A stretch of DNA of 34,988 nucleotides, from positions 1 to 34,988 of the forward strand of contig NWBJ01000127.1 in NCBI GenBank assembly GCA_002633115.1, written 5' to 3'. The notes beneath the pieces are model-generated. The model was given only the letters and a program-made list of their open reading frames with translations, was not told where the DNA came from and did no database searches. Of this stretch, positions 14,043 to 34,970 are shown piece after piece (position 1 is the first letter of the stretch; each line of letters opens with the position of its first letter). The position numbers and the translations under genes are program-made. The DNA is from Muribaculaceae bacterium Zag1. GTDB taxonomy: Bacteria > Bacteroidota > Bacteroidia > Bacteroidales > Muribaculaceae.

Positions 14043-16672
14043 CAGTGCAACATTTTCAGTGAGGTCCATTGGCTCTGCATATTTCCAGAGGTGCGCACGG
14101 TCGGGGTCTGCGGCTTCTGGTTCTTAAGGATTGACTGCTGTTTCTCTTGGGTGATCACATAGTCGCTGAGGTCCTTGAGGGTAACGTTGCCCTTGCTGTC
14201 TTGCAACTTTTTGAGCAGGTAGTAGGTGAACAAGCCATGGTTCATCTCCTTGTAGGGCAATGCGGTCTCGCCACCCGAGGCGGCTGAGAGCACAAACATA
14301 TTGCCCTTGGGGACAGTCTCCTTGGCTACTATTTGCACTCCGCGAGCCGCGACAAGCGGACTGTCATCTCGAGTGGCGCCGCTGAAGCAGGCATCGAGGA
14401 ACACCATCACCGATTTCGAATTGAGGTCATTCAATTCTGTGTAGAAGCGGTCGAGCGAGTAGCAGCCGTCGAGCAGGGTGGGGGTGGCATCGACTGGCAT
14501 CAGGAATGCATCCTTGCTCGAATCATCGGGAATGCCGTGGCCAGCATAGTACACGATTACCTCGGCATTACCGTCAAAGGCGTTGACTGTCTTCTTCAGA
14601 TTGCTCAGCGCTCCCACCATGTGGCCGTAGGTGGCATTGGTGAGCAGCTTTACATTGTCGCTGGGCAGACCCAAGGTCAGGCGGCAGTAGTCGGCAAAGC
14701 GCTCGCCATCGTGGAGAGCCGACTCCACGCTAGCGGTATTCTCATAATTCTCGTTGGCGATAATCAGGGCGAATGTGCGCGAGGCCACCTTGTTGGTCTG
14801 CGGGATATTCTTGTCTACGTCAGATTCCTTGGTGACTGTTACTTTTTCTACGGTCGTGGTAGTGGTGGTGCCGACCGTAGAGGACTTGCCGAAGATTTTA
14901 TTCCAGTCAATATCCACCTCGTGGCTGGCATAAGCCAATTCTTTTGAATTGTCAAATTGGTAGGTCTTGCCGCTCGGGGCAGTCACCAACACCTTGCCGA
15001 TTTGCGGCTGGTCGTTGACGATGAAGTATTCGGCTCCGCTGAAACGCATGCCCTCCCAGGTTGATTTGAAGCGTTCGGCCTCATTATCGGCCAATGGCAC
15101 CTTCAGGGTGATGGGGCCGTAGGACGACTCTATCAGGAAGGTCTGATTGTTGGCATCGTAAGGCTTAAGCTTCAGGTCGGTCAGAATCAGCTTGGCTGAG
15201 TATTTGCTCAGATACAACTGCTGAGCCTCGAGCTCCAGGCGAGCCTTCTCAGCCTTAATAGTAGTATCGTTGACGCGAGCCAGATATTCCTCGGTGGTGT
15301 TGAACTCGTTATGCTCAGCCCACTTGAGCATTCCTTGGGTGATGTAATCACGAGCGAACTCAGAGTAGAGAGGTACCTCGCCGGTCACTTTGGCATCCTG
15401 GCCGTAGCCGAGCTGGGTACCACCCCCTTCGTTGAATGTCAGCATCGGAGGCATGAACATATCGGCCAGCGCGTCCTCGCCCAGAGCGGTGAGCTGCTGG
15501 TTGACCGAGTCAAATTTGCCTTTCTCGCCGAGGCAGAGGTAGGATACGCCCAGAGCCTTGAGGTAGCGCACGGCCATCGGGTCGGTGCCCAACACATTCT
15601 CGAGCGCCATGGTGGCGGCTGAGAAATAAGTGTTGGCCTTGTCGCGCAGGCGGCGTGCTTTCTTCTCATCGCTGGTCTCGTTGAGAGCGTCGTTGAAGCA
15701 GAACACTGCATAGTTGTAGTAGCTCAGAGCCAAGTGCTTAGCATAGTTGAGCTTCATGGGATACAGCTCATCGAGCCGAGTGTACACCTGGATAGCCTCC
15801 ATGTATTCGTTGGCATCCTCGAGCAGTTTGCCCTTGAGTTGCAGCAGCAGTTCGTCATCAGGTGTGAGGGCAAGCGCCGGGTCGAGAAATTCGTTGAGGT
15901 ACTCGCACAGGTCGCCCTTCTGACAGGCTTGCATGCCAATCATCAAGAACTGCTTTTCGTGGGGATAGTTGCGCATTGCATCGCGCATGGTAGTCACAGC
16001 CAGGTCATATTTCCCGGCGTTGAGGCAAGCTTGGCCCATAAACAGGTACACCTGCTGGCGGCGTTCTTGTTCGCCAGTCGAGAAATACAACTTGAAGTAT
16101 TCGATGGCGCGCTCAAATTGCTGGGTATTGTAGGCGCGCGAGGCGGCGATGTAGGTGATAAGGGGGAATGAACCCTCGTCGCGAGTGAAGGGGTGATTCT
16201 TGAACTCCTCCATCAGTTGCACGTCGATAAACGCCATGGCAAATTTGCCCATCTCATCGCTATTGTTGATTGATGAGTAGAAATATGCGCCGCGCTCCAG
16301 CTCGGGGTCGAGGCCGAGTAGCTGGTTGCGAGCCTTCTGCCAGTTGGTGCTTTGTGGCTCGCTGTAGCCGAGAGCATCGCACGATGCCTCAAAGCCTTGG
16401 TAGACGGTCTGGTAGAGCGAATCTTTGTTCATGCTCTCCATCTTGATGGTCATCACCTGGCGGTATAGCTCGGCAGCGCGATTGGTGAGCGTGTCAGACA
16501 GTGCGGCTTGCATCTCCTCCTGCGGCAGGCTGTCGGGTGGCAGACTGTCGGGCAAGACGATTGAGAAGTGCTCAAAGTCCTCGGGGGTAGCTGTGAGCCG
16601 TGGAGCCCCAGCATATAGCGAGGCGCCGGCGGCACACAGTGAAGCGATTATGACAAAACGGTTTAAATGCAT
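14042..16672 (-). CDS. Exported TPR plus caspase-family (C14) protease
   Basis: The product has 876 residues with a signal peptide (1 to about 22, ending SLYAG). Residues about 150-420 look like TPR helices (FERAIEYFKLYFSTGEQ, KYDLAVTTMRDAMRNYP, EYMEAIQVYTRLDELYP). About 632-860 form a caspase p20-like domain: RTFALIIANENYEN, the catalytic histidine in VYYAGHG (His712) and the catalytic cysteine in FLDACFSG (Cys762), followed by SAASGGETALPY and GLFTYYLL. Both dyad residues are present, so it should be active. Cleavage specificity is unknown. It lies between a beta-propeller protein (21 bases upstream) and the DUF4384 gene (1-base overlap), so the three probably work together outside the cytoplasm. 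Confidence 0.9.
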   Translation of the reverse strand: MHLNRFVIIASLCAAGASLYAGAPRLTATPEDFEHFSIVLPDSLPPDSLPQEEMQAALSDTLTNRAAELYRQVMTIKMESMNKDSLYQTVYQGFEASCDALGYSEPQSTNWQKARNQLLGLDPELERGAYFYSSINNSDEMGKFAMAFIDVQLMEEFKNHPFTRDEGSFPLITYIAASRAYNTQQFERAIEYFKLYFSTGEQERRQQVYLFMGQACLNAGKYDLAVTTMRDAMRNYPHEKQFLMIGMQACQKGDLCEYLNEFLDPALALTPDDELLLQLKGKLLEDANEYMEAIQVYTRLDELYPMKLNYAKHLALSYYNYAVFCFNDALNETSDEKKARRLRDKANTYFSAATMALENVLGTDPMAVRYLKALGVSYLCLGEKGKFDSVNQQLTALGEDALADMFMPPMLTFNEGGGTQLGYGQDAKVTGEVPLYSEFARDYITQGMLKWAEHNEFNTTEEYLARVNDTTIKAEKARLELEAQQLYLSKYSAKLILTDLKLKPYDANNQTFLIESSYGPITLKVPLADNEAERFKSTWEGMRFSGAEYFIVNDQPQIGKVLVTAPSGKTYQFDNSKELAYASHEVDIDWNKIFGKSSTVGTTTTTTVEKVTVTKESDVDKNIPQTNKVASRTFALIIANENYENTASVESALHDGERFADYCRLTLGLPSDNVKLLTNATYGHMVGALSNLKKTVNAFDGNAEVIVYYAGHGIPDDSSKDAFLMPVDATPTLLDGCYSLDRFYTELNDLNSKSVMVFLDACFSGATRDDSPLVAARGVQIVAKETVPKGNMFVLSAASGGETALPYKEMNHGLFTYYLLKKLQDSKGNVTLKDLSDYVITQEKQQSILKNQKPQTPTVRTSGNMQSQWTSLKMLH

Positions 16673-16693
16673 AGTTGTGCGTTTTGTGATAGT

Positions 16694-18793
16694 TTATAGG
16701 GCATCGACAAAAGTAAACTCAGCGGTGATGCGGCGGAATTGGCTCCCCTTGTCGGTAGATACGCCGATGTGGTGCTGGAAGTCTACGTTCATGTCGTTGA
16801 TACGCTGTACATTGTTCTGCAGATGGTGTTGCACGCCCAGAGCGCGGAGGAATGCGAGTTGCTCGTTCTCGGTGACGGGAGCCTTGGTGGTGACGGTGAT
16901 AGCCGACATCTGGCCATTCTTGTACACGGGCTCGTTCTCCATCTCGCCATAGGTGCCGTCATACTTGATGGTGCTCACGATCGGGGTGGCGTCAGCAGTG
17001 CCAGAAATCTTGACAATCAGCTTCTTGCCTTGCTCAAGGTAGGGAGCGAAGTCGCCCTCAAATGCCTCCTTGACGATGCGTAGCATCGAGCTGGCAGCGC
17101 CGGATTCCTCGACATGGTACTTGCCGGGAGCGAAGTCCTCAGAAGCGGTGAACTGCGGGTCAACCTCGTAGGTGAATTTGACAGTGTAGTTGAGAATCTT
17201 GTTGCCCTCGCTGTCGTAAGCCGGGTCAACGCGGCTGTCAACTGTGATGTTGGTGTGGTCTGAGATGATGTTGTTGCTCTTGGCCTCCTCGATCACAGAG
17301 CGCTTGATTTCCTGCAGGCGCAGTTCCTCCATTTGCTGCTGCTGGATGATTTCGATCGACACTACATTGTCGTCACCATCCATAAAGCTCAGAGGTATGC
17401 GGTCGACATTGTCGTAGATGTAGCTCTCGCCGTTGGCGCGGTTGTAGACCTCGGCATAGATCAGCTCGAAATTGTCGTCGCCCATCACACCGTAGCGAGC
17501 GTTGCGGAACTCAAGGTCGGAAGCGTTGGTGAAACCGCCGAGGCTAGTCTCAGGCACAGGCAGGAAGATTGAGGGCATGTTGTCGAAGTCCACCTCGAGC
17601 AGTTGGCTGCCACGGTCGTATTTGCCGAGCGAAACAGATGCCATCGACACCAGGTCGCCAGCATATTGGGTAGCCAATTCGTCCTCGTAGGTTTGCAGCA
17701 TCTTGCGGCGGCTCTCATCGTTGACACGATTTTGATATTGCTCCATGGTCTCGCCGGGCATCATCTTCAACCATTCGTTCAATCGCTCGTTGGCTTCCTC
17801 CGAGATGAGTTTGCCGTAGTAGGGCGAGAGGCGGGTGAGGCGCTTGATCTTAAGGGCTGAGGCTGAGGGGTAAAGCACCAGGGCGTCTTGCTCCATGTCG
17901 CAGATCATGTACAGTGAGTTGACCTCGCCAGTGGGCACGTCGATAAAGTCGTGGTCGGCCATGTTGAGCAGGTTGAATATCTCAATCTTCTCGGGGCTGG
18001 TGGCCACCAGCAGGTATTTGCCATCGGCGTTGTAGTCCAGGCCGTAACCTCCGCCCAGGTCGTCGAGTGTCTTCTTGGGCATGAATGTGCGGGTGTCGTA
18101 TAGCGTAAGGTCGCCCTCTTGGGTGAGGATGGCGAGCTCTGAATCGTCGGCGTTGAAGCGCACGGCGGTAACATCATCCTCAAATTTATAGCGGGTGCGG
18201 GGTTTCTTCTGGTCCAGGTTGTAGATCACCACATTGTGGCCATCGTCCATAGCGATGAAATAGCCATTGTGGCTCATAAGCATGCGTGTGGGCTTGATGT
18301 CGATGGGCAGGGTGTCGACCTGTGTGAATTTGCGTGTCTCAAACACGTTGAGATTGCCGCCGGCAGCGATGATCAGTTTGCGGGCATCGGGGGTGTAGAC
18401 GGCCGCTGTGGGGTTGCCGCCAAGTTTCTTGTTCTTGAATTGCAGGATTTGCTGGTCGGCATCGATGGTCGAGAATACAGCCGACTTGTTTTCCTTCTTG
18501 TCAGCTGAAACCAGCACATAGTTGGCTGCCGTAGGGCTGACCTGGAAATCGAGGATTTTTTGGCCATAAGTGGCGAGCACGGCTCCACGGCAGGTCTTGG
18601 CTTGGTTGCCGCTGTAGCTGAACGGCGCATTGTTGACCAGGCGCACGCCCTCGGGGGTGGTAGGTTGAGCAAAATGATACTCCATCTTTTTAGATGGCAC
18701 CACCTCGGCATCTTGCGCGGCGGCGGGCAGGGCGCTGGCCAAGAGCAGGGCGGCGCAAGTGAGGGTGGTTGGCAGAGAGTAAAGTAGTGTCAT
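16694..18793 (-). CDS. Exported beta-propeller (WD40-like) protein
   Basis: The product has 699 residues with a signal peptide (1-26, ending LPAAAQ). Residues about 75-330 are WD40-like blades: DFQVSPTAANYVLVSAD, AVYTPDARKLIIAAGGNLNVFETRKF, AVRFNADDSELAILTQEGDLTLYDTRTF, LDYNADGKYLLVATSPEKIEIFNL. The middle (about 340-520) is helical and unassigned. The C-terminal part contains KKLIVKISGTADATPI and LAFLRALGVQHHL, faintly like an OmpA-type peptidoglycan-binding domain; I would not rely on that. It is the first gene of the operon with the caspase-fold protease and the DUF4384 protein, and has a promoter box at 18815-18822. Confidence 0.8.
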   Translation of the reverse strand: MTLLYSLPTTLTCAALLLASALPAAAQDAEVVPSKKMEYHFAQPTTPEGVRLVNNAPFSYSGNQAKTCRGAVLATYGQKILDFQVSPTAANYVLVSADKKENKSAVFSTIDADQQILQFKNKKLGGNPTAAVYTPDARKLIIAAGGNLNVFETRKFTQVDTLPIDIKPTRMLMSHNGYFIAMDDGHNVVIYNLDQKKPRTRYKFEDDVTAVRFNADDSELAILTQEGDLTLYDTRTFMPKKTLDDLGGGYGLDYNADGKYLLVATSPEKIEIFNLLNMADHDFIDVPTGEVNSLYMICDMEQDALVLYPSASALKIKRLTRLSPYYGKLISEEANERLNEWLKMMPGETMEQYQNRVNDESRRKMLQTYEDELATQYAGDLVSMASVSLGKYDRGSQLLEVDFDNMPSIFLPVPETSLGGFTNASDLEFRNARYGVMGDDNFELIYAEVYNRANGESYIYDNVDRIPLSFMDGDDNVVSIEIIQQQQMEELRLQEIKRSVIEEAKSNNIISDHTNITVDSRVDPAYDSEGNKILNYTVKFTYEVDPQFTASEDFAPGKYHVEESGAASSMLRIVKEAFEGDFAPYLEQGKKLIVKISGTADATPIVSTIKYDGTYGEMENEPVYKNGQMSAITVTTKAPVTENEQLAFLRALGVQHHLQNNVQRINDMNVDFQHHIGVSTDKGSQFRRITAEFTFVDAL

Positions 18794-23444: not shown

Positions 23445-23746
23445 AAGTAACCAGCCAATTCAAAATTAAATTAAAGGAAAGGTACAAAACCACAGATTTA
23501 CACAGATTTACACAGATTCAGCTATGGGAATCGCCGATTTGATGGAGGCGCAGTCGCGCCGACAGATATCCACAGATGCCATCCAGATAATCTGTGACAT
23601 CTGTCGGCACCTCTGGTGCTCTATGGATATAATAGTCGTCATCTGAGGAATCTGTGTGAATCTGTGTAAATCTGTGGTTCCCTGTTCATAATTAAAATTC
23701 AAAATGGAAAGTTACTTAAAGTTTAATTTAAATTGACAGGTTGCTT
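23445..23746. mobile_element. ~302-bp non-autonomous element with imperfect terminal inverted repeats
   Basis: The ends 23445-23472 (AAGTAACC...) and 23721-23746 are imperfect inverted repeats (about five differences and one gap). A second end-like copy lies at 23694-23719. Inside, 23488-23519 and 23648-23679 are inverted repeats matching at 31 of 32 bases, made of tandem CACAGATTTA units, and GCCGACAGAT/ATCTGTCGGC forms a further inner pair. No coding capacity is seen. With plain AT-rich sequence it fills most of the gap 23354-23804. The ends share the AAGTAA...CAATT...AAATTAAA pattern with the element at 12512-12880. Confidence 0.7.
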
Positions 23747-23804
23747 AAACATGTATGTTGGCAAATCAATTGACAACGTAAACAATCATCAAATTATCAT
23801 CGTA

Positions 23805-24992
23805 ATGGCATCATTAAAATTCAAATTCCGACCCCCAAAAATTGCCGACTCCCCTGGCTCTCTCTTCATGCAGATTGCCGAGGGGGGTCAATCTATGCGC
23901 CTGCCTCTGCCATTTAAGTTATATGCCGAGGAGTGGGATGTAAAATCCCAACAACCCATTATGCCAAATCAAAAATCTGACCGCTTACCTGCGTTAGCTT
24001 ATTTAAAGGATGAAATCGATTGGCTTAAGTATCGCTTCAATGAGCTTGACACTGAGGGGGTGTCAATAAGGCAAGTGGTGGATAACTTCACTGGCCAAAC
24101 TCAGTCGGGGACAGGCGTTTTTGATTATCTCCGCAGTTATTCTCGCCGCATGGAGAGACTGGGCCGTAAGCGATGCGGCGAAATGATAATGGCTGCTTTG
24201 CGTAGCCTGTTGAGATTTCGGCGCTCCGTCGACTTGGGCTGGGAGGCGCTGACACCCGATTTGATGGAGGAATATGAAGCTTACCTGAAAGGAAAGAACC
24301 TGACTCGAAATTCCACCTCATTCTATATGCGCAATCTGCGAGCAGCCTATAATAAAGCGGTGAATGATGGCCGATGCCCCGACTTGCATCCATTCAAAAA
24401 GGTCTACACAGGCGTAGACAAGACTATAAAACGAGCTTTAAATGAGGCTGAATTGAAAGCTGTCAGAAGCCTCAATCTTTCCTCAATGTCCTCCTTGGCT
24501 TTTGCTCGAGATATGGCTATGGCGAGTTTCTTCTTGAGAGGAATGGCCTTTGTGGATATGGCTTTTTTGCGCAAGAAAGATCTGTCGAAAGGTTTTGTGA
24601 CTTATCATCGACGCAAGACCGGCCAATATCTCACAGTCGAAGTGCTCCCGCAGTTGCAGAGCATATTGGAAGCCTATCCAAGCAAGACCCAGTATTTGCT
24701 GCCCATTATTAATAAGGAAGATGGCACGGAGCGACATCAATATCAGTCAAAATTGAGTTGCATCAATCGCTCTCTGAAGAAAGTGGGGGAAATGGCCCAT
24801 CTCAGCCTCCCTCTCACTACCTATGTGATGCGCCATACTTGGGCTACAATCGCCAGAACCAAGAACATTCCAATATCGGTAATCAGCGCAGCTCTGGGCC
24901 ACGACAACGAAAAGACGACCCACATCTATTTAGACAGCATCCAAAGCCATGCCGTAGACGAGGCTAATCGCCTCATCTCCCAAGGCTTATAA
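23805..24992 (+). CDS. Tyrosine recombinase, probable DNA invertase
   Basis: The product has 395 residues from ATG 23805 (MASLKFKFRPPK); upstream starts (TTG 23733, ATG 23751) would add an unlikely extension. The N-terminal arm is followed by a SAM-like core-binding domain (about 95-195, VFDYLRSYSRRMERLGRK and following). The catalytic domain (about 205-390) has the box I arginine in FFLRGMAFVDMAFL, the lysine in HRRKTGQ, YVMRHTWAT in box II (Tyr where many have His), the histidine in LGHDNEKT, and the nucleophile tyrosine in HIYLDS. This is the Bacteroidetes chromosomal recombinase type; several members invert adjacent promoters. The inverted 19-bp sites that start 21 bases after its stop are its likely substrate. 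Confidence 0.92.
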   Translation: MASLKFKFRPPKIADSPGSLFMQIAEGGQSMRLPLPFKLYAEEWDVKSQQPIMPNQKSDRLPALAYLKDEIDWLKYRFNELDTEGVSIRQVVDNFTGQTQSGTGVFDYLRSYSRRMERLGRKRCGEMIMAALRSLLRFRRSVDLGWEALTPDLMEEYEAYLKGKNLTRNSTSFYMRNLRAAYNKAVNDGRCPDLHPFKKVYTGVDKTIKRALNEAELKAVRSLNLSSMSSLAFARDMAMASFFLRGMAFVDMAFLRKKDLSKGFVTYHRRKTGQYLTVEVLPQLQSILEAYPSKTQYLLPIINKEDGTERHQYQSKLSCINRSLKKVGEMAHLSLPLTTYVMRHTWATIARTKNIPISVISAALGHDNEKTTHIYLDSIQSHAVDEANRLISQGL

Positions 24993-25012
24993 CCCGCCTC
25001 CATAAAAAAGTC

Positions 25013-25031
25013 CGTCTCTATGTAAGAGACG
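25013..25031 (+). repeat. Left 19-bp inverted recombination site
   Basis: CGTCTCTATGTAAGAGACG consists of two 7-bp inverted arms (CGTCTCT/AGAGACG) around a 5-bp asymmetric centre ATGTA, the layout of a tyrosine-recombinase core site. Its exact reverse complement is at 25247-25265. It starts 21 bases after the recombinase stop codon. Confidence 0.85.
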
Positions 25032-25041
25032 AACACAACGG

Positions 25042-25049
25042 CAAAGTTA
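25042..25049 (-). promoter_or_regulatory. Promoter -7 box inside the invertible segment, pointing left
   Basis: The minus strand reads TAACTTTG followed by C, an exact TAnnTTTG match, identical to the prfB box. Transcription would leave through the left 19-bp site and run antisense into the 3' end of the recombinase gene. A convincing -33 TTTG is not visible at the usual distance. I found no other TAnnTTTG on either strand of 25032-25246. Confidence 0.6.
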
Positions 25050-25246
25050 ATACAAATTTTTGAAACTGTAATTATTTTCCACCAACTTATTTTCAAGAAT
25101 TTGAAATTTTAGCGTTTTTCCCTTCCTATTTGATTGATTACACCAAGAATCTATATATTGACTCTCAATCTTTTAGCAAAATCAGTAATTCAATTGCAAA
25201 ATAAATTGTGCAATCACCTATAAATCACTTATCTAAGGGCTTTGCA

Positions 25247-25265
25247 CGTCTCTTACATAGAGACG
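25247..25265 (-). repeat. Right 19-bp inverted recombination site
   Basis: CGTCTCTTACATAGAGACG is the exact reverse complement of the left site, so its centre TACAT is in the opposite orientation. Recombination between the two would invert the segment rather than delete it. It ends 40 bases before the first operon gene. Confidence 0.85.
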
Positions 25266-25305
25266 CACATTTAAATGCTGATTGAAACCAATTAAAGATA
25301 CTCCT

Positions 25306-26085
25306 ATGTCAGACAAGACTAAAGTGCCTGGAATGGAAGCGCCTTATGTGCAAGGTGCCACTTCAAATCCTTATGCCCAACGACAATATGGGGCACCATC
25401 GCCGGCTGCGGCCAACCAATATGCCCCACAAGGTACACGTGTGCCCGGTATGGAGCCAAAGGGTGAGCAACAAGTCGCTCAAAACACCCCGTCAGAACCC
25501 CTGCTGGGATTTCTCTATAGCATCTCACGCACTCCTTATGGCGAATTTTGGCCTCTCTACCAAGGCGAAAATACCATAGGCCGCAATCCTGACTGTGACA
25601 TTGTGCTCGCAGAAGAATCGGTGAGCGGATTCCATGGGTCAATCCTAATCCAAAAGCAATGGGGCTCGCAAAAGACAATTGCCAGCATCGAAGACAAAGG
25701 TTCGAAAAACGGCATTGGCCTCAACAACGTTGGCGTTGTCGGCAAACAGTTCTGTGAGAACGGCGACCGCATCTTCATTGGCCCTAACTATGAGCTTCTG
25801 CTGATCCTCATTGATCCGGCAGCTATTGGACTGAAAGTATGCGAGGACTTTAAGGCTTGCCAGCCGGCTCAAAGCACTCAGCCACAAGCTTCTGCTGGAA
25901 ATTATACCCAAGGCACAAATCCTGGAGTGTCTATGCCCAAATTCCCGCCTTCATTCTCACAGCCTATGGGAAATCCCACCCCGGGATCCTGGGCCACTCC
26001 AGCGCAACGTCCGCAATACAACGATGGCACCGTGGGCACATCTGGCGAAGCGATGCCCCAAAGAGGTGGCACTATCACGCAATGA
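25306..26085 (+). CDS. Cytosolic FHA-domain adaptor protein
   Basis: The product has 259 residues from ATG 25306; a TTG eight codons upstream (25282) is unlikely. Residues about 1-70 and 195-259 are Pro/Gln/Ala-rich and look disordered. About 85-170 form an FHA domain: ENTIGRNPDCDIVL, SVSGFHGSI (SxxH) and DKGSKNGIGLNNVG, all key phosphothreonine-binding positions. The motif T-K/R-VPGME occurs twice near the N-terminus (residues 4 and 44) and could be a kinase target recognised by FHA domains, as in GarA/OdhI-type proteins; that is inference. No membrane segment. The stop overlaps the kinase start by four bases (ATGA), so adaptor and kinase are coupled. Confidence 0.88.
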   Translation: MSDKTKVPGMEAPYVQGATSNPYAQRQYGAPSPAAANQYAPQGTRVPGMEPKGEQQVAQNTPSEPLLGFLYSISRTPYGEFWPLYQGENTIGRNPDCDIVLAEESVSGFHGSILIQKQWGSQKTIASIEDKGSKNGIGLNNVGVVGKQFCENGDRIFIGPNYELLLILIDPAAIGLKVCEDFKACQPAQSTQPQASAGNYTQGTNPGVSMPKFPPSFSQPMGNPTPGSWATPAQRPQYNDGTVGTSGEAMPQRGGTITQ

Positions 26086-27572
26086 ATGCCTCATACACTG
26101 CGAGTCCTGCTGTAAAAGTATTGCAATCGGCCGATCCTGACGTGCAATACCAATTTAATCCCTCTTCTCGCCTTCTGGGCGAGGGTGGGATGGGCTATGT
26201 GTATGTCGGAAAGCGCATCAGCAAGACTGAGGGCACACGCGATGTGGCGATTAAGAGAGTCAAGCCAGAGATTATTTTTGACAAAACCATACTGGAGCGA
26301 GCTCGTCGAGAAGGCAGCCTCATCATAGTGCATCAAAATCTGGTGAGGATGTATGATTTCATTGATGAGCAATATAACGATGTGCTTGGGCGCCCGCAGC
26401 ATGACTACTATGTGATAAGCGAGTTGCTTATGGGTGTTTCTTTGGCCGACTTGCTGGAGGGACGCACTACCGATCAAATAGGTCGCGGAGTGCCAGTAGC
26501 TGTGGAGAAATATGAGCTGTATCGTTCTGACCCGTTTGCCTTTGCCAAGGAAATGGTGACTGCCGTCCTCAATGGCCTCATCTCTTTACATCAGTATGGC
26601 TATATCCATCGCGATATCGATCCCAGCAATATCATTATCACAACAACCGGTGAGATTAAGCTTATTGATTTCGGAATTGCCAAGCGTTGGAAAGATCTCA
26701 CACAGTCAGACAACCTAACCCATAATGGGGTATTCTTGGGCAAGCCTCTGTATGCTTCACCTGAGCAAATACGTGGTAGGATTGATGAGCAGGGACCGGC
26801 TGCGGATATCTATTCTGTGGGCATAATGCTTTTCCATCTGATAGTAGGACACCCCCCTTATCAAGGCACCTCTACCCAGATTACTGAGGCGCATTGCAAG
26901 GGCAATTTTCCAGTGCGTGAAATCCCACGCTCAGATATAGCTAAAATTATCAAGAGAGCATGCGCTCATGAGAAAGGAGACCGGTATCAAAGCGCAGCTG
27001 AATTTTTTGTAGAGCTAAACCGTCTGCCAGCGGTGCCTCCAAAGCCTGCAATGCCAAATTGGCTAAAGACCTCAATTGGGGCGGCTTGCATTCTTATCCT
27101 GGCCCTTATCTTTTATAAATGGTTAGACCAAGAGCCTACTTTTGAAGAGGCAAAAGCTATGTTGGCTGAGAAGTCGTCTTTTGACAAAGGATTGGAGGCT
27201 TTGGAAGGCTTAGCTCTTAAAAATGATTTGCAAGCTATCGACTTGTTGAGTACACTCTATGTAAATCCTCAAGCCAGCAGGAATGATCCTCTTGGAGATA
27301 TTCGCAAGAATGCTCAAGCAGTGATGGATCCAGACAGTACTGAGGCACACAAATTGCGTAAGAATGCCATAAAGATTGATAATGAGAATTTCTCTGCCAA
27401 TATAAATTTGGCTGAAGACTATATCAACGGCATTGGATGCCAGGTGAGCCAAAGCAAGGCTAAGGAATATCTTGAAGCGGCTCGAGAGCTGGCTAATACC
27501 AAACAAGAAGAGAGAGCAATCAAAAGAATGGAACATAAGTTCCAAACCACATTCTCTACACCTATTAATTGA
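26082..27572 (+). CDS. Transmembrane Ser/Thr protein kinase with C-terminal repeat domain
   Basis: The product has 496 residues from ATG 26082, chosen for its ATGA overlap with the FHA gene; the open frame upstream to 25857 runs inside that gene. The kinase domain is about 30-310: glycine loop LLGEGGMGYVYVG, Lys58 in VAIK, Glu77 in helix C, DFG at 196-198, YASPEQI in place of APE. The catalytic loop is HRDIDPSN (176-183), with Asp180 where Hanks kinases have Lys. One membrane helix follows (about 325-345), then about 145 residues of helical repeats with a Sel1-like stretch (FSANINLAEDYINGIG). Likely topology: cytosolic kinase, periplasmic helical tail. Two bases separate it from the next kinase gene. 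Confidence 0.92.
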   Translation: MNASYTASPAVKVLQSADPDVQYQFNPSSRLLGEGGMGYVYVGKRISKTEGTRDVAIKRVKPEIIFDKTILERARREGSLIIVHQNLVRMYDFIDEQYNDVLGRPQHDYYVISELLMGVSLADLLEGRTTDQIGRGVPVAVEKYELYRSDPFAFAKEMVTAVLNGLISLHQYGYIHRDIDPSNIIITTTGEIKLIDFGIAKRWKDLTQSDNLTHNGVFLGKPLYASPEQIRGRIDEQGPAADIYSVGIMLFHLIVGHPPYQGTSTQITEAHCKGNFPVREIPRSDIAKIIKRACAHEKGDRYQSAAEFFVELNRLPAVPPKPAMPNWLKTSIGAACILILALIFYKWLDQEPTFEEAKAMLAEKSSFDKGLEALEGLALKNDLQAIDLLSTLYVNPQASRNDPLGDIRKNAQAVMDPDSTEAHKLRKNAIKIDNENFSANINLAEDYINGIGCQVSQSKAKEYLEAARELANTKQEERAIKRMEHKFQTTFSTPIN

Positions 27573-27573
27573 T

Positions 27574-28635
27574 ATGAATCCAACTACTATTGAATATAAA
27601 CAAGGCTTAATGGTGAGTCCTTCTGGCACTATAGTGCGAAAAGAGGATAATCCGTTGGTATACCTATGGGTAGAGAACGAATGGTATTGTTTTGACCCAC
27701 GCCCGGAGGAACAAGGTGGAAGCAAGCTGCTCGGCAGCGGAGCCATGGGGGATGTATTCTTGGGTTATCGTGACAGCAACAAGAGTCCCGTGGCTATAAA
27801 GCAAGTGAAAGAGGCTTATGCTAACCAACCTCAAATCCGTGCTCGAGCCAAGCAAGAGGCATCACTCGCCTTTAGGCATAAAAACCTGATTGAGATACTT
27901 GGATCTTGCCAGTGGGATGAAGCGGCCGGACCCTTTTTCATCCTGAGCAATTATGTCAATGGGATAGGAATCCGTGAGTTTGTAATGGATCTTCCAAAAG
28001 AGGTTGACAAGACAAAGAAAGTGATAGAGCTAATGGTGTCAGTGCTTGATGCTCTCGATTATTTGCATAATCGAGGTATCATCCATCGAGATGTCAAACC
28101 CTCTAACATCATGATTGAGAACAATGCTAACGTGCGCCTTATGGATCTTGGTATTGCTCGCCTTAATGGCGGAAATCAATACTCCAAATTCGGATTCATT
28201 GGCACTCCCGAGTATGCGGCTCCAGAGCAAATCCTTAGAGACGACTTCTTGCAAAAAGGCATAAGGAAGGAGATAAATCCCAGCACTGATGTCTACGCGA
28301 CTGGCATAACCATTTACGAACTCATCACTGGCACCAATCCCTACAATGTGCCAGTGCAAGATGAAATCCTGGCTCGTCAAATCAATATGCCGCTACCCGA
28401 CCACATGTCGGTACCGCCTCGAGTTATGAAGGTGCTCAAAAAAGCAACAGAGAAGGATCAATCTGCTCGTTACCAATCGGCCGCAGAGTTTAAAACCGAA
28501 CTGTTGGCCGCAATCGAACGTCCACCAAGCGTTGCCGAACAAGCAATGTATTGGGTAAAGTCAAACATAGGGATTGTTGTGGGTGGCCTGTTGGGTCTGC
28601 TCGCAATTATTCTCGCCCTAATAGCACTCAATTGA
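27574..28635 (+). CDS. Tail-anchored Ser/Thr protein kinase
   Basis: The product has 353 residues from ATG 27574, directly after the previous stop; the open frame to 27472 lies inside the first kinase. After a 50-residue N-terminal region the kinase domain has the glycine loop LLGSGAMGDVFLG, Lys76 in VAIK, a complete HRDVKPSN catalytic loop (171-178) and YAAPEQI. The metal-binding motif is DLG (191-193) instead of DFG, a tolerated change. The domain ends near residue 315 with SARYQSAAEF. A single C-terminal helix (about 329-352) anchors it with almost nothing beyond the membrane. By motifs this is the more canonical of the two kinases. One base separates it from the phosphatase gene. Confidence 0.93.
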   Translation: MNPTTIEYKQGLMVSPSGTIVRKEDNPLVYLWVENEWYCFDPRPEEQGGSKLLGSGAMGDVFLGYRDSNKSPVAIKQVKEAYANQPQIRARAKQEASLAFRHKNLIEILGSCQWDEAAGPFFILSNYVNGIGIREFVMDLPKEVDKTKKVIELMVSVLDALDYLHNRGIIHRDVKPSNIMIENNANVRLMDLGIARLNGGNQYSKFGFIGTPEYAAPEQILRDDFLQKGIRKEINPSTDVYATGITIYELITGTNPYNVPVQDEILARQINMPLPDHMSVPPRVMKVLKKATEKDQSARYQSAAEFKTELLAAIERPPSVAEQAMYWVKSNIGIVVGGLLGLLAIILALIALN

Positions 28636-28636
28636 T

Positions 28637-29632
28637 ATGGCCATAGATCCTAATAATATAGCAACACTCGATTTTCCCTGCACTTGGATCAAGGGAGCCA
28701 CTGATACGCAAATCGGAGGCCGCGCTGAAAACCAAGACTTTCTGGGTTCAGCCGAGACTCCATTTGGCCATCTCGTTGTGGTATGCGACGGAATGGGCGG
28801 AGGCCCGGCTGGAGCTACTGCTTCACACATAGCTGTCGAGGAAATAATAAAAGGTGTGCAAGAGACCGATGTGCAAGAATCCCGAGTCAATGCCGTCAAG
28901 AAAGCGGTGCGCCGAGCCAATGAGGCGATAGTGCGCCAAGGAATGGAAGACCCAACCGTGGCCGGAATGGGTTCAACATGCGTTGTGCTTCTGCTTAACG
29001 AAGATTCAGCTGTAGCAGCCCATGTAGGCGATAGTCGCATCTATCAATTGCGTGGCAACAAAAAAGTCTGGCGCACCTGGGACCACTCGATGGTCTTCGG
29101 GCTTGTAAAGCAGGGCATTCTTACCGAGGAGCAAGCGCGTCTGTCCAGCGATTCTAACATTATCACTCGTGCCCTGGGCGTAAAGCGGGATATAGAAGTT
29201 GACTGCGAAGAAATACCTTTCCGCAAGGGCGACCGATTCGTGCTTACAACCGACGGTGTGCACGGCTCTATGCCAGAGAATGAATTTATCGTGACTGTGG
29301 CCAACCAAGGGGTCAAGCTCGAAAAGCAGCTTAGTCAACTCTCGGCGCAAGTCGAGGAAATCGGCCAAAGCCATGGAGGCCATCATGACAACAATACTAT
29401 AGCCATATTAGACGTATCAAAAAAATCAAAACTCAAAGCCACTATGAGTAGAACGGCTAAGCAATTGCTCATTGCTATGGGCATAGTGCTATGCGCAAGC
29501 ATAGTGCTCAATATTATCCTCTGGGTGAAGGTTGACAATCAACCCAAGACAGATGTGGCCGACAACGCCGAGAGTGCCATATTGGTCTCGACATCTGACA
29601 AATCGACACACGGTGAAGACAGTGGGGAATAG
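28637..29632 (+). CDS. Membrane-anchored PP2C-type protein phosphatase
   Basis: The product has 331 residues. The PPM/PP2C motifs are all present: RAENQD (29-34), the metal-binding aspartate in VVVCDGMGG (51-55), MGSTCVVLL (111-119), HVGDSRIY (129-136), LTTDGVHGSM (203-212) and the final metal ligand in DNNTIAIL (251-258). A membrane helix (about 277-298) and a short tail of about 33 residues follow, so the phosphatase is cytosolic and anchored at the membrane. It should remove the phosphates added by the two upstream kinases, as PstP does for PknA/PknB in mycobacteria. The one-base gap to the second kinase suggests matched production. Confidence 0.95.
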   Translation: MAIDPNNIATLDFPCTWIKGATDTQIGGRAENQDFLGSAETPFGHLVVVCDGMGGGPAGATASHIAVEEIIKGVQETDVQESRVNAVKKAVRRANEAIVRQGMEDPTVAGMGSTCVVLLLNEDSAVAAHVGDSRIYQLRGNKKVWRTWDHSMVFGLVKQGILTEEQARLSSDSNIITRALGVKRDIEVDCEEIPFRKGDRFVLTTDGVHGSMPENEFIVTVANQGVKLEKQLSQLSAQVEEIGQSHGGHHDNNTIAILDVSKKSKLKATMSRTAKQLLIAMGIVLCASIVLNIILWVKVDNQPKTDVADNAESAILVSTSDKSTHGEDSGE

Positions 29633-29679: not shown

Positions 29680-30291
29680 ATGAAAACTTATAGCATTGGG
29701 CGCGACCCATCTAACAACATCATTCTCTCTGATCCACAACAAGTGACGAGTCGACGCCATGCCACTCTCACAGTAGCCGACAATGGCAAAATGACTATTG
29801 TTGACCAGAGCACTAATGGTACGTATATCAATGGAATACGTATGAGCCCTAACGCACCAGTTCCTGTAACTCGCGACGATAAGGTATCATTTGCCCATGT
29901 GGCCAATCTCGATTGGAATATGGTGCCTAAGCAGCGCAACCCTGTGATGATGGGAATATACGCTGCGGTTGGAGTAATCTTGCTGGGCCTCGTGGTATGG
30001 TTGATTGTGGCTATGGTGCATCGCGAAGATGATGATGACACTGTTGTAACACCCACTGAGCAGACAACTGAAACACCGGCTCCGGAAAAAACTGAAACTC
30101 CAAAGGAAGAAGAGAAACAGGAGGAAAAGAAAGAAGACGGCTCCAAATCTGACGATCAGAGCAAGAAAGGTGACAATCAGACTAAGAAAGGCAACAGCAA
30201 TCGCAACACTGCAGACGATAAACAAAAGTCTGAAAATACTGAGAAGCAGCCACAGGAACCTAATGTCGATGACCCCGACCTCCCGCTTTGA
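29680..30291 (+). CDS. FHA domain, single membrane helix, charged tail
   Basis: The product has 203 residues. It starts directly with an FHA domain (about 1-70): YSIGRDPSNNIIL with Gly7-Arg8, SRRH (24-27) and STNGTYING (44-52). A membrane helix lies at 89-113, followed by about 90 residues rich in Glu, Lys, Thr and Pro (VTPTEQTTETPAPEKTETPK and onward), without cysteines and probably disordered. With the FHA domain inside, the charged tail lies in the periplasm and could contact the cell wall or a partner. It is a plausible membrane receptor for phosphorylated partners of the operon. It follows the phosphatase by 47 bases. Confidence 0.9.
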   Translation: MKTYSIGRDPSNNIILSDPQQVTSRRHATLTVADNGKMTIVDQSTNGTYINGIRMSPNAPVPVTRDDKVSFAHVANLDWNMVPKQRNPVMMGIYAAVGVILLGLVVWLIVAMVHREDDDDTVVTPTEQTTETPAPEKTETPKEEEKQEEKKEDGSKSDDQSKKGDNQTKKGNSNRNTADDKQKSENTEKQPQEPNVDDPDLPL

Positions 30292-30340: not shown

Positions 30341-31918
30341 ATGCAACTGATAAAAATAGGGCGCGACAACTCAAATAAGATTGTCATAAACAATCCCGCT
30401 GTCAGCTCTCTCCATGCCGAGCTTACGGTGCTAAATAATGGCGACCTGCTGCTCGAAGACAAGGGCAGTCTCAATGGCACGACAGTTAACGGCCAACCCA
30501 TCCAGCCCGGTCAGCAAGTGCCGGTGCGTCGTGGCGACCGTATAGCCTTTGCCGGCCAAGAATTGAATTGGATGAGCGTACCTCAGCCTGAGGACTTGAG
30601 CAAATATTCAGCTATCTTCGGCGTGGGCTCTGCTTACCAAAATGACGTGCGTCTTACCGGATCCCATGTGAGCCGCTACCATGCCACCATCAAAAAGACA
30701 AAGGATGGCAAGTGGATGATTGAAGACCACAGCAAAAATGGCACCACAATAAATGGCCAGCGCATTCCCGCTGGGCAGAATGTGCCCATCAAGCGCAAGG
30801 ACGTGATTACTTGCGGCGGAAATACCTTGGATTTGTCTACAATTATGCCTAAACCGCGTTTCAACTGGAACGTTGCCGGATGGGTGGCAGGTGTTGTTGC
30901 TCTTTTAGCCGTAGGTATTTGGACATGGCCGTGGTCCCATGATCAACAAGAGGTTGACCGCACAACAGCTTGCGTATTCCATCGCTTCCACTATGTGGTG
31001 ACTTTAGACAACGACCCTTTTGTCCAACTCTTTCATGATCTTGGTTTGGACGATTGGCCTGATAAATATGAATTTGGAATTGACTCGAAAGGCGAAGTTG
31101 TGGCGGTTGGTCAGACTGCCGAAATATTTAGCGAAAAAGCGAAGGGTACTCCCGCCACTATAACAGGTACTGCATTCTATGTCGATAATGAAGGCAAGAT
31201 GATGACCAACCGCCATGTCGTCGCTCCATGGGAAGTCGACGAGGAGATGCAACGCAAGGTACAAGAAAAGATGGGTGAATACCAACAAGAGTTTGTAAAT
31301 TATGGAATCCTGGACTTTTTGGTAACCAGAAAGAAAAAAGCTTATGATACCAATGCAATCCAAGCTGCTAAAAACCGTTATCTGAGCTCTAAAATAGAAG
31401 TGTCTGGTACCACCGATTTTCTTGGTGTAGCTCCGGCTTATCAGTTGCTCGACGGTTTTGACGAGTTGCTTAAAGCAAATGTGGTCAACCTTAGTAAGTC
31501 AAAAGACATTGATCTGGCCATACTTCAACTCAATGTGCGTAAGACCCCCGATGATGTAAAGCCCCATGTGGTGGATATCCATAAGGCTATAAAAGCTCAG
31601 GACCTTAAGCCTGGCAAATCAAAATTTACCTATTATGGCTATCCCGCTGGCCCCGCTCTCAACCTTGATAATAAAAACAATGTGGGCCTTACTCCTACAG
31701 CCTACGAAATCGGTTTGAGCCGGCGCCCCGACAAGTATGAAATGGAGCTCCAAGGCCAAGTGCTCGGTGGAGCTAGCGGATCCCCGATTATTACACAGGA
31801 CGGTCTCTTTGCTGGCGTGATCAACAAGGCGATCCCAGGCACCACAATAAGCAAGGGAGTGCTTGCAAAGCATGCTGTCGAACTCTATGACGAAACCATC
31901 CGCCAAGAAGCAAACTAA
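30341..31918 (+). CDS. Tandem FHA - transmembrane - trypsin-like serine protease fusion
   Basis: The product has 525 residues. FHA domain 1 is about 1-72 (IKIGRDNSNKIVI, SSLHAEL, SLNGTTVNG) and FHA domain 2 about 88-165 (VGSAYQNDVRL, SRYHATI, SKNGTTING). A membrane helix lies at about 179-197. Residues about 205-520 form an S1-type protease with a visible triad: His292 in MMTNRHVV, Asp391 in KDIDLAILQL, Ser479 in GGASGSPIITQDG, the form used by DegP/HtrA-like enzymes. No PDZ domain follows. Phosphopeptide reading in the cytosol thus appears fused to proteolysis in the periplasm. Its gene lies between another FHA-TM gene (49 bases upstream) and an exported protein (22 bases downstream). Confidence 0.92.
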   Translation: MQLIKIGRDNSNKIVINNPAVSSLHAELTVLNNGDLLLEDKGSLNGTTVNGQPIQPGQQVPVRRGDRIAFAGQELNWMSVPQPEDLSKYSAIFGVGSAYQNDVRLTGSHVSRYHATIKKTKDGKWMIEDHSKNGTTINGQRIPAGQNVPIKRKDVITCGGNTLDLSTIMPKPRFNWNVAGWVAGVVALLAVGIWTWPWSHDQQEVDRTTACVFHRFHYVVTLDNDPFVQLFHDLGLDDWPDKYEFGIDSKGEVVAVGQTAEIFSEKAKGTPATITGTAFYVDNEGKMMTNRHVVAPWEVDEEMQRKVQEKMGEYQQEFVNYGILDFLVTRKKKAYDTNAIQAAKNRYLSSKIEVSGTTDFLGVAPAYQLLDGFDELLKANVVNLSKSKDIDLAILQLNVRKTPDDVKPHVVDIHKAIKAQDLKPGKSKFTYYGYPAGPALNLDNKNNVGLTPTAYEIGLSRRPDKYEMELQGQVLGGASGSPIITQDGLFAGVINKAIPGTTISKGVLAKHAVELYDETIRQEAN

Positions 31919-31940: not shown

Positions 31941-33284
31941 ATGAATCTCATATCCCGCAATATCGTGGGTGCTGTCATTGGGGCAGCAACCGCCTTTATG
32001 GCCTCGGCAACCGATTTCCATCTGTCAGATGGCTCGATTCTCTCAGGTTATATCTCCTCACAACCTTATGCCTCTGGCGCTAAGTATGAAATTGTCGCCA
32101 ATCAGGCTTACATCGTGATTCCGCGCGATTCCCTAATATCAGAGCCCACACTATCTTTCACCCCCAAGGCTTCGCTTGAGGCCAAGTGGGTAGAGTGGGC
32201 CGATGCCAACGATGCTTGGGACCTCAAGGATAATGTCGAGGGTCTCTATTTGACCAATGTCTCGGCTAAAGGTCCGTATCAGAATCTGCGGAATGTGCAT
32301 GTCATGGCGCAAGGCATAGAATATCGATTCGTGCAGATTGAGGAAGGAAAATATCAAATCCCTGCCTCAAAGATTTTGAAGCAAAGCATTGCTCCGCGTT
32401 CTCCCGAATTGCTGTCAGGCGTAGATTGCACTATTACGCTGCGCAATGGCAATTTTACCAAGCAGATATCAGGACAACTGATTGAAAATGCTTCGGGCAA
32501 TTGCTATTCTCTGCTTGATGAAAACGGTATGACGCAGACCTTTAAGAAATCCGACCTTGTCAAGATGGAGATGCATGGCATCAATACAGATCAAGATTTC
32601 CCATCGCAATGCGAATACAAAGATGTGATTATCCGTAAGCAGGGGAGTCCTGTCACCGGATATATCACAGCTCAGGATTATGGTCAGAAGACTGTGACTG
32701 TGTTTGAAAACCAGTCAAAACAGACTCTCATTCGTTTCAATGAGATTGCCAGTTTTAACAAGGAGCCAAATACGGGTGTGTACAATCCTCTTACCGATGT
32801 CATACTTGCTGAGGGGAGTGTACGCATCAATGATAAGACTGTTATCAATCACTTGGATGTCGAGCAGCATGGAAATCATCTTGTGGTCATGCCATCTGAC
32901 AGCGTATATGATGCTCATTGGATTACCATCAAGCCTGAAGTAGAAGCTAAGCTCGTGTATTATGCTAATTTGCCTAAGGAGCAGAAGATTTCTGATATCT
33001 ATTTGATACCTCTTACAGAATCTACGGCTCAAGAGATTGGCATAGTCAAAGAGTCAGACTCAAAAGGCAAATTTCTTTTCAAGAAAAAGAAAAATAAAGA
33101 AGAGGAGGATAGCAAGGTCTATGCTCTTACTTACGAAGACATGGTGCAGAAGCGCATCGCACCTGAGCGAACCTATCGCTCGCGCAATGATGTGACCCGA
33201 TGCATATATTCAATGCCTGAGCCTGGCAAGTATGCTTTCTACAACAATACCACTAAAAAGGCCCTGATTGTACAAATTGATTGA
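31941..33284 (+). CDS. Exported repeat protein of unknown function
   Basis: The product has 447 residues with a signal peptide (about 1-23, ending FMASA). The body contains loosely repeated units of the form G-S/N-x-x-x-G-x-I, as in SDGSILSGYISSQP, RNGNFTKQISGQLIE and KQGSPVTGYITAQD, each followed by a beta-rich stretch and a polar IPRDSLIS/FKKSDLV-like end. This recalls short Bacteroidetes repeats of the LKNGSxIxGxI type, but much diverged. A lysine-rich patch (KGKFLFKKKKNKEEEDSK) lies near residue 375. No enzyme motif is seen. It lies between the FHA-protease and another FHA protein and overlaps the latter by one base, so it likely belongs to the same system, perhaps as the extracytoplasmic target or sensor. 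Confidence 0.7.
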   Translation: MNLISRNIVGAVIGAATAFMASATDFHLSDGSILSGYISSQPYASGAKYEIVANQAYIVIPRDSLISEPTLSFTPKASLEAKWVEWADANDAWDLKDNVEGLYLTNVSAKGPYQNLRNVHVMAQGIEYRFVQIEEGKYQIPASKILKQSIAPRSPELLSGVDCTITLRNGNFTKQISGQLIENASGNCYSLLDENGMTQTFKKSDLVKMEMHGINTDQDFPSQCEYKDVIIRKQGSPVTGYITAQDYGQKTVTVFENQSKQTLIRFNEIASFNKEPNTGVYNPLTDVILAEGSVRINDKTVINHLDVEQHGNHLVVMPSDSVYDAHWITIKPEVEAKLVYYANLPKEQKISDIYLIPLTESTAQEIGIVKESDSKGKFLFKKKKNKEEEDSKVYALTYEDMVQKRIAPERTYRSRNDVTRCIYSMPEPGKYAFYNNTTKKALIVQID

Positions 33285-34027
33285 TGCTCCAGCCTATGAT
33301 GCTTAGAGAAATCAGCGTGGGACGAGACCCGGCATGCGATATTCCCATAGATCCCAACATGGGCACTGTCAGTTCGCGCCATGCGGTGATATACAATAGT
33401 GTTGATGGTCAGCTTTTCTTCCGAGATCAAAGCAAGAATGGTTCGACTGTCAATGGAGCACCTGTGCATAATATAAGCGTGCCTCTCAACCCGGGTTCTT
33501 CTATTGTATTGGCTAATACGTGCTTTTTGCCATGGGAAAAAATCTCAGTATTTTTCCCCATGGCCCAAGCACCATATTCCACTCAATATGCGTCAAGTTC
33601 ACAAGGCAATGCTGCCATGGGTGCGCCCACTTCATACGTAGGCTCAAATCCTTATGGCGATGTTTATGCTGGAATGCCAAATCAGGCAGCTAGTTATGCT
33701 CCTTATGTAAGTGCTAACAATACAGCCGACACTGAGACCCTGCAGAAATTCCATTGGGGAGCTTTCTTCTTGTATCCCTATTGGGGCTTTACTAATGGGA
33801 CCTGGTGGGCGTTTTTCCTATTGTTGATACCTCCGTTTTATCTGGTAGGCGCTTTGATATGCGGATTTAAAGGCTATCAGTGGGCTTGGAAACGAGGCAA
33901 ATGGACCTCGTTTAAGGAATTTAAAATAGTCCAGCATACGTGGACCACTGTAGCCTTTACATCTCTTATTTTCAGTGTGTCAGTAGGACTGTTGTGCTTG
34001 ATAATAGAGTGGTTAATGCATGTTTAA
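33284..34027 (+). CDS. FHA domain fused to a small multi-pass membrane domain
   Basis: The product has 247 residues from ATG 33284, which overlaps the previous stop by one base (TGATG). FHA domain at about 8-75: ISVGRDPACDIPI, SSRHAVI and SKNGSTVNG are all intact. A Ser/Tyr/Ala-rich linker follows (about 90-150), then a hydrophobic C-terminal region with about three membrane segments (GAFFLYPYWGFTNGTWWAFF, LLIPPFYLVGALICGFKGY, TSLIFSVSVGLLCLIIEWL). It resembles DUF2628-type small membrane domains, not firmly. The linker NPYGDVYAGMPNQ resembles the linkers of the first FHA protein. It should bind phosphothreonine partners at the membrane. Confidence 0.85.
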   Translation: MLQPMMLREISVGRDPACDIPIDPNMGTVSSRHAVIYNSVDGQLFFRDQSKNGSTVNGAPVHNISVPLNPGSSIVLANTCFLPWEKISVFFPMAQAPYSTQYASSSQGNAAMGAPTSYVGSNPYGDVYAGMPNQAASYAPYVSANNTADTETLQKFHWGAFFLYPYWGFTNGTWWAFFLLLIPPFYLVGALICGFKGYQWAWKRGKWTSFKEFKIVQHTWTTVAFTSLIFSVSVGLLCLIIEWLMHV

Positions 34028-34970
34028 ACCTAATTCTTTTTGTTCTTTTATGTCAAAACTTCTATCTTATAGACTGATGTTTTTGGCCATGGCTTTTGGG
34101 ATAACTCTCAATGTTATGGCTGATGACATATATACATTGACTCCAACCTTTACCTTTGTCAACGATCAGGTTGGGGAGCTTCCTGAGGTGAAGGATGAGG
34201 AGGGCAACTATCATATATTTGGGAATGGCACTCTGACGGTTAAGTTGGATGTCGAGCCCAAGACTTATGATGGCATACTCATAAGCCTGGATGGTGGTGA
34301 GAATTATTCATCTTTTGATGAGACCCAAGAGTTCAGCGCTCCGATTAGTGCCATAGAATCGAGCTATACTTACAACGTTTATTGCAAAATCCAGTATGCG
34401 GTAATCGATGGCGTAGAGGGGCAGGAATTGCATGCCTGCCAACTCACGGTGTGGCCAGATATGGTTTTGCCACAACTTGTTGTATTGGACCACCTTAGCG
34501 CAAGTGAAAGCCACACTATGGAGTTTGACTCCAGTCAATTTGGAGCTAATGGCCAGTGGGAAATTGCCTCATGGATATGTTCCTACACAGGATGGCCTGA
34601 TGGTGGGGTTGAGATTGCCAATAATGATAATACTCTGGTGATTGAGCCAGAATTCAGCACTCCCTTGCCTGAAAAGAAGGAAGCGACTTACTATGCCCAT
34701 CTTATCGGAACAGCCCCTAATGGAGAAAAATGGGTAGATGTTTACCTTAAGGTAGCCGAATGCACCCAGTACAATGTGCCCCCGAGAATTGAGACTGTGA
34801 ATCAATATATCCTCCAGTATAAAAAATATGATAATGTATATGAAAAGGAAAAACGTAGCTATGCTCTTGCCAATATTGGAGTAAGTGATGAGGAATGGGA
34901 AAACTCAGAGGCGGAAATTGAGTTGACCGTAAGTTATTCTGATAGAATTGAAAGAACATATACTAATTAG
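34020..34970 (+). CDS. Exported protein of unknown function
   Basis: The product has 316 residues from ATG 34020, overlapping the previous gene by eight bases; ATG 34050 is an alternative. The N-terminus is a signal peptide (LMFLAMAFGITLNVMA, cleaved before DDIYTL). The mature part is acidic and beta-rich with many aromatic residues, like Ig-like or adhesin modules (GNGTLTVKLDVEPKTYDGILISLDGGENY). No named domain is recognised. It ends at TAG 34968 without an anchor or sorting signal, which is a little abrupt for a protein of this style; a premature stop or a continuing partner beyond the window cannot be excluded. Its composition is the most A+T-rich in the window. Confidence 0.65.
   Translation: MFKPNSFCSFMSKLLSYRLMFLAMAFGITLNVMADDIYTLTPTFTFVNDQVGELPEVKDEEGNYHIFGNGTLTVKLDVEPKTYDGILISLDGGENYSSFDETQEFSAPISAIESSYTYNVYCKIQYAVIDGVEGQELHACQLTVWPDMVLPQLVVLDHLSASESHTMEFDSSQFGANGQWEIASWICSYTGWPDGGVEIANNDNTLVIEPEFSTPLPEKKEATYYAHLIGTAPNGEKWVDVYLKVAECTQYNVPPRIETVNQYILQYKKYDNVYEKEKRSYALANIGVSDEEWENSEAEIELTVSYSDRIERTYTN

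Follow-up and report, generated by a model that had tools for sequence, protein, structure and literature searches.

A 253-nucleotide (nt) cassette lying between a tyrosine recombinase gene and a signalling operon in Muribaculaceae bacterium Zag1 is, judging by its sequence, very probably a real and functional promoter inverton, ordinary among known switches. It stands in the 34,988-nt stretch of DNA analysed here and called the window (NCBI GenBank assembly GCA_002633115.1, contig NWBJ01000127.1, positions 1 to 34,988 of the forward strand). The whole explanation, to which we give a probability of about 85%, is that the adjacent recombinase inverts a promoter-bearing segment and so controls an operon with the gene order FHA-kinase-kinase-PP2C-FHA-protease. 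An initial annotation of the same DNA had already proposed that this recombinase flips the segment and phase-varies the operon; the proposal is now supported by recurring cassettes beside related recombinases, by a shared promoter spacing and by relatives with inverted inner segments, from which we infer inversion at this very locus and its effect on transcription. The features of the proposed switch are as follows.

23805 to 24992, plus strand: tyrosine recombinase gene, 395 amino acids (aa), proposed local invertase (PF13102 and PF00589; ATG at 23805, stop at 24990-24992)
25004 to 25034, minus strand: intrinsic terminator made of the left site, its flanks and a T6 tract (terminator scan; RNA fold)
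25013 to 25031, plus strand: putative left recombination site CGTCTCTATGTAAGAGACG, 7-5-7 palindromic, exact reverse complement of the right site
25032 to 25246, no strand assigned: 215-nt segment proposed to invert, as suggested by its arms and by equivalent segments that are inverted between related loci
25042 to 25049, minus strand: Bacteroides-type -7 element TAACTTTG, pointing left, with its end 29 nt away from the left arm's outer edge
25247 to 25265, plus strand: putative right recombination site CGTCTCTTACATAGAGACG, exact reverse complement of the left site

According to the mechanism that we propose, the recombinase would recombine the two 19-base-pair (bp) sites and thereby invert the 215 nt between them, which would carry a single outward-facing promoter of the Bacteroides type. 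As assembled, the promoter would face the 3′ end of the recombinase gene (OFF), with a transcript that would stop at the left site and its T6 terminator; after inversion it would face right and read through the right site into the operon from 25306 onward.

The cassette noted in the initial annotation is confirmed: the 19-bp reverse-complement pair is exact, both sites consist of 7-bp arms around a 5-bp asymmetric centre (CGTCTCT, then ATGTA or TACAT, then AGAGACG), the recombinase gene is complete and separated from the left site by 20 bases, and the first ATG of the operon is at 25306. Such a pair around a short intergenic segment is unexpected by chance, the longest exact inverted pair being 13 nt in 300 dinucleotide-preserving shuffles of 23600-25400 searched over the same distance range. 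Throughout the genome of 4,459,920 bases the 19-bp site has two exact copies only and one further place at 3 mismatches, which is at chance level because the site pattern read backwards, as a control, gave two places at ≤3 mismatches. An origin of the sites as dispersed repeats was rejected, since genome-wide the pair is confined to the cassette locus.

Inside the segment, the outward promoter is represented by the -7 element at 25042-25049 on the minus strand, TAACTTTG, which fits the Bacteroides form TAnnTTTG named in PMC4747536. As it faces left, away from the operon at 25306, the assembled orientation is probably OFF for the operon. The terminator at the left site folds as RNA at -15 kcal/mol (z -3.96) and would, from this prediction, stop OFF-state transcripts ahead of the recombinase gene; the terminator scan as a whole gave 2 sites against 1.8 expected, so that the weight of this one comes from its place and stability and not from the count. 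The terminator is a feature of the window and not of the recombinase family: a family rule was rejected, with a T tract flanking the left arm on its outer side in 9 of 46 cassettes and the right arm in 3 of 46. Relative to the initial annotation, the picture is thus refined in that the promoter faces away from the operon, the left site doubles as a terminator and the target is not a capsule locus.

The recombinase has the features expected of an active enzyme adjoining its segment. Its proposed catalytic residues R245, K271, R343, H344, H366 and Y375 are conserved in 131-132 of the 132 homologues aligned, and the protein aligns with XerC-type (E 4.6e-7) and XerA-type (E 7.9e-4) recombinases of known structure. 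Compared with XerC, Ala replaces the usual first Arg in the window recombinase, 126 of 132 homologues having Ser there and the invariant R245 lying three residues earlier; in box II, Tyr stands in place of the usual first His in the window recombinase and in 132 of 132 homologues, so that the standard HxxR motif is absent. Such replacements are common in Bacteroidetes recombinases, and the same residues as in the window recombinase are found at these positions in the two Palleniella recombinases, 37-38% identical to it, whose segment is found inverted (see below). Homologues at E ≤ 1e-20 occur in 40 of the 49 genomes of the genus and, at E ≤ 1e-85 and among the matches listed, in at least 124 of 397 genomes of the family (own genome included in both counts); the named relatives are Bacteroidales in 25 of 26 records, one being titled as a Bacillota metagenome-assembled genome.

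Cassettes of this architecture recur beside related recombinases. The survey covered 130 deduplicated recombinase open reading frames (≥200 bits) from the longer stretches fetched, among the matches listed, and a cassette was defined as an exact inverted pair of ≥12 bp, 120-300 nt apart, starting ≤450 nt after the recombinase stop. At the 117 of 130 loci with ≥700 nt downstream, to which the downstream count was limited, such a pair lies just 3′ of the recombinase in 52. Upstream sequence had a pair at 3 of 113 loci and block-shuffled downstream sequence at 1 of 117, both controls being counted over the full 730 nt; a separate look at loci with short flanks gave a pair in 11 of 30 (window included). 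The total set comprises 54 cassettes rather than 52 because loci with <700 nt downstream were included. In 46 of these 54, an outward -7 element (TAnnTT[TC]G) stands at a distance of 20-55 nt from an arm edge, whereas 100 rounds with shuffled inner segments gave 3.8 such cassettes on average and 9 at most; for the narrower range of 26-32 nt the number is 40 (shuffled mean 0.9, maximum 4), and most of the elements are 29-31 nt from one outer arm edge. The promoter faces the recombinase (OFF) in 35 cassettes and away from it (ON) in 9, with 2 facing both ways and 8 unassigned. Site sequences vary between loci, a TCTCTT...AAGAGA-like form being common to many, and 7 of the 26 named relatives have a promoter-bearing pair ≤450 nt downstream. 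At 9 of the 54 loci the first gene behind the cassette resembles two NusG-family proteins, one of which barely matches NusG in Pfam.

The most direct evidence comes from three pairs of homologous loci with inverted inner segments; the initial annotation had suggested looking for the flipped form in related genomes, which succeeded for these pairs and not for the exact locus. Palleniella intestinalis (L262) and P. muris (L263) carry the same 19-bp arms around 145 nt, and their inner segments are identical at 139 of 145 positions when one is inverted, compared with 73 of 129 in direct alignment, while the flanks are collinear (1151/1198 on the left, 218/248 on the right). Two further pairs are less sharp than Palleniella: G126 and G141 (112/151 inverted, 78/153 direct), whose recombinases share a tree group of eight with that of the window (SH-aLRT, the Shimodaira-Hasegawa-like approximate likelihood ratio test, 93, just below the 95 mark), and G016 and G013 (117/163 inverted, 94/162 direct). 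Inversion of such segments in nature is thereby shown for related loci; at the window locus itself it is probable.

Several observations have to be set against the proposed switch. No flipped allele of the exact locus was found, the locus being represented by one genome in one orientation; a search of plasmid DNA for sequence similar to 23805-25330 gave no match, and the exact 22-mer made of the left site and its flank was absent from one scan of viral contigs. Among other pairings of related loci, L048/L174 gave an inversion signal near the shuffled level, L130/L216 were in the same orientation without inversion, and the near-identical pairs L151/L153 and L154/L159 were also in the same orientation. 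No clear -33 element was recognised in the window cassette. By the criterion used, 65 of the 117 related recombinase loci have no cassette, and at least L057 and L167, counted among the 52, look like chance pairs without a promoter. Enrichment of contig ends as a sign of mixed orientation was rejected, with 10 of 130 contigs ending ≤250 nt downstream of the recombinase and 7 of 130 upstream, and 13 downstream and 17 upstream at ≤700 nt. Finally, no cassette was found directly upstream of kinase 1 homologues at 25 of the 31 places considered below, one of them in the same genus (G014), even if two of these (L118 and L180) have little or no upstream sequence.

The single orientation in a single genome, with no flipped allele of the same locus, would also be expected of a former invertible promoter that is now locked by an inactive recombinase or a non-recombining pair, the operon then being either silent (OFF) or transcribed by read-through out of the recombinase gene; we consider this unlikely, as the recombinase frame is intact with its conserved residues kept and the two sites have retained their perfect match, as would follow from maintenance by recombination or selection. 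Inversion by another recombinase of the same genome acting in trans appears quite unlikely. The own genome does contain five other homologues at E ≤ 1e-20. In G367, the cassette upstream of a homologous operon (L181 7708-7898) has no neighbouring recombinase, but its 17-mer recurs in one copy about 1.3 kb downstream of a recombinase located elsewhere in the same genome (L212 6959), so that trans action may occur in that species. However, the restriction of the window site to this one locus speaks for the adjacent enzyme, and the placement of a cassette directly 3′ of a recombinase recurs in the family. Very unlikely, lastly, is a pair of unrelated terminators or hairpins around an ordinary intergenic region with a recombinase that acts elsewhere, for although the left site with its T6 tract is a good minus-strand terminator, no T tract accompanies the right site, two terminators would not be expected to share identical 19-mers down to the asymmetric centre, the paired architecture and promoter spacing recur beside diverged recombinases with differing sites, and inner segments are inverted between related loci.

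Inversion of the promoter segment by the adjacent recombinase would place the following genes under phase-variable control.

25306 to 26085, plus strand: FHA-domain protein, with which the proposed phase-variable operon begins (PF00498)
26085 to 27572, plus strand: Ser/Thr protein kinase 1, with a provisional start codon (PF00069; scanned as 25857-27569)
27472 to 28635, plus strand: Ser/Thr protein kinase 2, given as the longest open reading frame, the true start being probably further in (PF00069)
28637 to 29632, plus strand: PP2C-type protein phosphatase (PF13672; 187.5 bits with the Stp1 family model, below the cut-off of 230)
29680 to 30291, plus strand: FHA-domain protein (PF00498)
30341 to 31918, plus strand: double-FHA and trypsin-like protease (PF00498 in two stretches, PF13365)
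31941 to 33284, plus strand: 447-aa protein, apparently with a signal sequence as judged by eye (without a match in Pfam or NCBIfam; homologues in related operons)
33281 to 34027, plus strand: FHA-domain protein (PF00498)
34020 to 34970, plus strand: 316-aa protein, apparently with a signal sequence as judged by eye (followed closely by the end of the contig)

A structure prediction for the 447-aa protein had a mean pLDDT (predicted local distance difference test score) of 52 and was not used. A PADLOC search gave many kinase models for both kinases (PD-T4-6, mad6 and others), PDC-M21C for the phosphatase (E 4.7e-18), RT-Protease_XI for the protease (5.2e-8) and, weakly, PD-T4-6 for one FHA protein (4.7e-5), with no match for the recombinase, the other two FHA proteins or the 447-aa and 316-aa proteins. 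These matches are taken as shared domains and not as a defence system, though the operon may have a role in defence.

Kinase 1 has homologues at E ≤ 1e-50 in 27 of the 397 genomes of the family, its own among them, at no fewer than 31 places in 30 loci, a lower bound because only three candidates per genome were scored. The gene order FHA-kinase-kinase-PP2C-FHA-protease recurs in relatives, and in two of them the operon continues into apparently exported proteins (WG-repeat, outer-membrane beta-barrel), in one also into S41 peptidase and SH3 families. Of these 31 places, 6 carry an upstream cassette (window, G025, G057, G107, G367 and G141), five of these being counted by script and that of G141 identified by reading the locus, where a 214-aa gene stands between cassette and FHA gene; the G057 cassette has, by eye, a variant -7 element, TAACATTG. 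The 468,637 bases of the 30 kinase loci yielded a single additional inverted pair with a promoter (L177). Seen from the recombinase side, operons of the kinase/FHA type stand behind the cassette at 6 of the 54 loci (window, L043, L165, L178, L183 and L187), at least L043 being of a more distant type, with a kinase fused to FHA and 45 bits against that of the window. The recombinases of these six loci are scattered in the 130-row tree, with six label changes compared with a shuffled mean of 5.8, at least three of which are forced by well-supported branches. This distribution suggests that kinase operons have repeatedly been recruited to recombinase-driven cassettes; the tree is a quick build in which 56 of 127 inner branches were drawn open for weak support, so that repeated recruitment is suggested rather than proven.

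A few individual loci deserve mention. In G014 (L041), where no cassette was found, a perfect 60-nt palindrome (3784-3843) lies about 60 nt before the first gene of the operon. The G025 cassette (L042 8050-8363) is directly upstream of the kinase gene, with no recombinase match in the stretch fetched, and its arm-proximal promoter faces away from that gene. In G297 (L240 5149-5338), a locus left out of the kinase-operon counts, a cassette with the 17-mer site of G367 leads to a gene resembling the 203-aa FHA protein of the window. Elsewhere in the window, a 192-nt stretch just 5′ of the recombinase gene (23488-23679) has 32-nt near-exact inverted ends containing the 19-mer AATCTGTGTAAATCTGTGG, which has 135 genome matches at ≤3 mismatches compared with 0 for its backwards control; several of those listed form inverted pairs about 170 nt apart, in the manner of a dispersed element resembling a miniature inverted-repeat transposable element or a repetitive extragenic palindrome. 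On the minus strand, 13146-18793 holds adjoining genes for a DUF4384 protein, a TPR and caspase-domain (Peptidase_C14) protein and a WD40-like beta-propeller protein.

Promoter inversion is an established basis of phase variation for the capsule, surface-protein and some resistance loci of gut Bacteroidales. We propose tentatively, at slightly less than an even chance, that a conserved FHA-kinase-kinase-PP2C-FHA-protease operon, linked in relatives to exported and outer-membrane proteins, has independently been placed several times under recombinase-driven invertible promoters, and that cells thereby phase-vary a phosphorylation signalling programme. If so, a part of the population would stochastically switch on a whole signalling programme instead of a single surface structure, perhaps since unbalanced kinase output is costly, as is reported for the KKP modules of PMC11341870. 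The recurrence of the pairing beside diverged recombinases suggests selection for a stochastic signalling switch, and since the two states would differ only in promoter orientation, the function of the operon becomes directly testable with locked strains. No publication on a phase-variable FHA/Ser-Thr kinase/PP2C operon was found in searches of open-access literature, and the kinases met in phase-variation papers, in the parts of them consulted, are tyrosine kinases of polysaccharide loci; words beginning with "kinase" are absent from the main text of PMC11892184, which describes tyrosine-type invertases near invertons in a defined gut community.

Among the closest characterized systems, judged by their features rather than by sequence comparison of the recombinases, is that of the tyrosine recombinase BF2766/Tsr19, which flips such promoters in Bacteroides fragilis and likewise lies near an invertible promoter with a TAnnTTTG -7 element (PMC4747536). 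In work cited there, more repeat copies between promoter and genes were accompanied by less transcription, which agrees with an effect of arm hairpins on read-out. BF2766 differs in that it also works a distant second promoter, whereas the window site occurs at one locus only, and in its targets, which are exopolysaccharide and outer-membrane protein genes, including the tyrosine protein kinase BF2769, and not Ser/Thr kinases, PP2C and FHA proteins (PMC4747536). The invertase-adjacent invertible promoters of Bacteroidales capsule and resistance loci, at which upxY is often the next gene, are similar in arrangement and again differ in target class (PMC8748976); the double invertible regions described in the same paper resemble the two inverted-pair cassettes that we found downstream of the recombinase in L151, L153, L157, L158 and L237. 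The capsule promoters of B. intestinalis share inverted segments of comparable size (183-186 bp) and an approximate transcription start inside the proximal repeat, but have ten-bp repeats that partly overlap those of the B. fragilis serine recombinase Mpi, of which two homologues are reported (PMC8375218). The analogy with capsule and surface loci drawn in the initial annotation holds for the type of switch and not for its target, an FHA/Ser-Thr kinase/PP2C operon. As for that target, KKP modules also have two adjacent Ser/Thr kinases and a PP2C phosphatase, but the clusters kept in PMC11341870 have one FHA-fused and one cold-shock-domain-fused kinase, whereas in the window operon the FHA, protease and apparently exported proteins are separate; membership of these toxin-antitoxin or defence modules was rejected, neither window kinase being fused to an FHA or cold-shock domain (Pfam, E ≤ 0.001). 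By the features tested, the switch belongs with the tyrosine-recombinase promoter invertons of the Bacteroidales (BF2766/Tsr19-like), a type already known, and what sets it apart is its unusual target operon and the recurrence of the pairing of such operons with cassettes.
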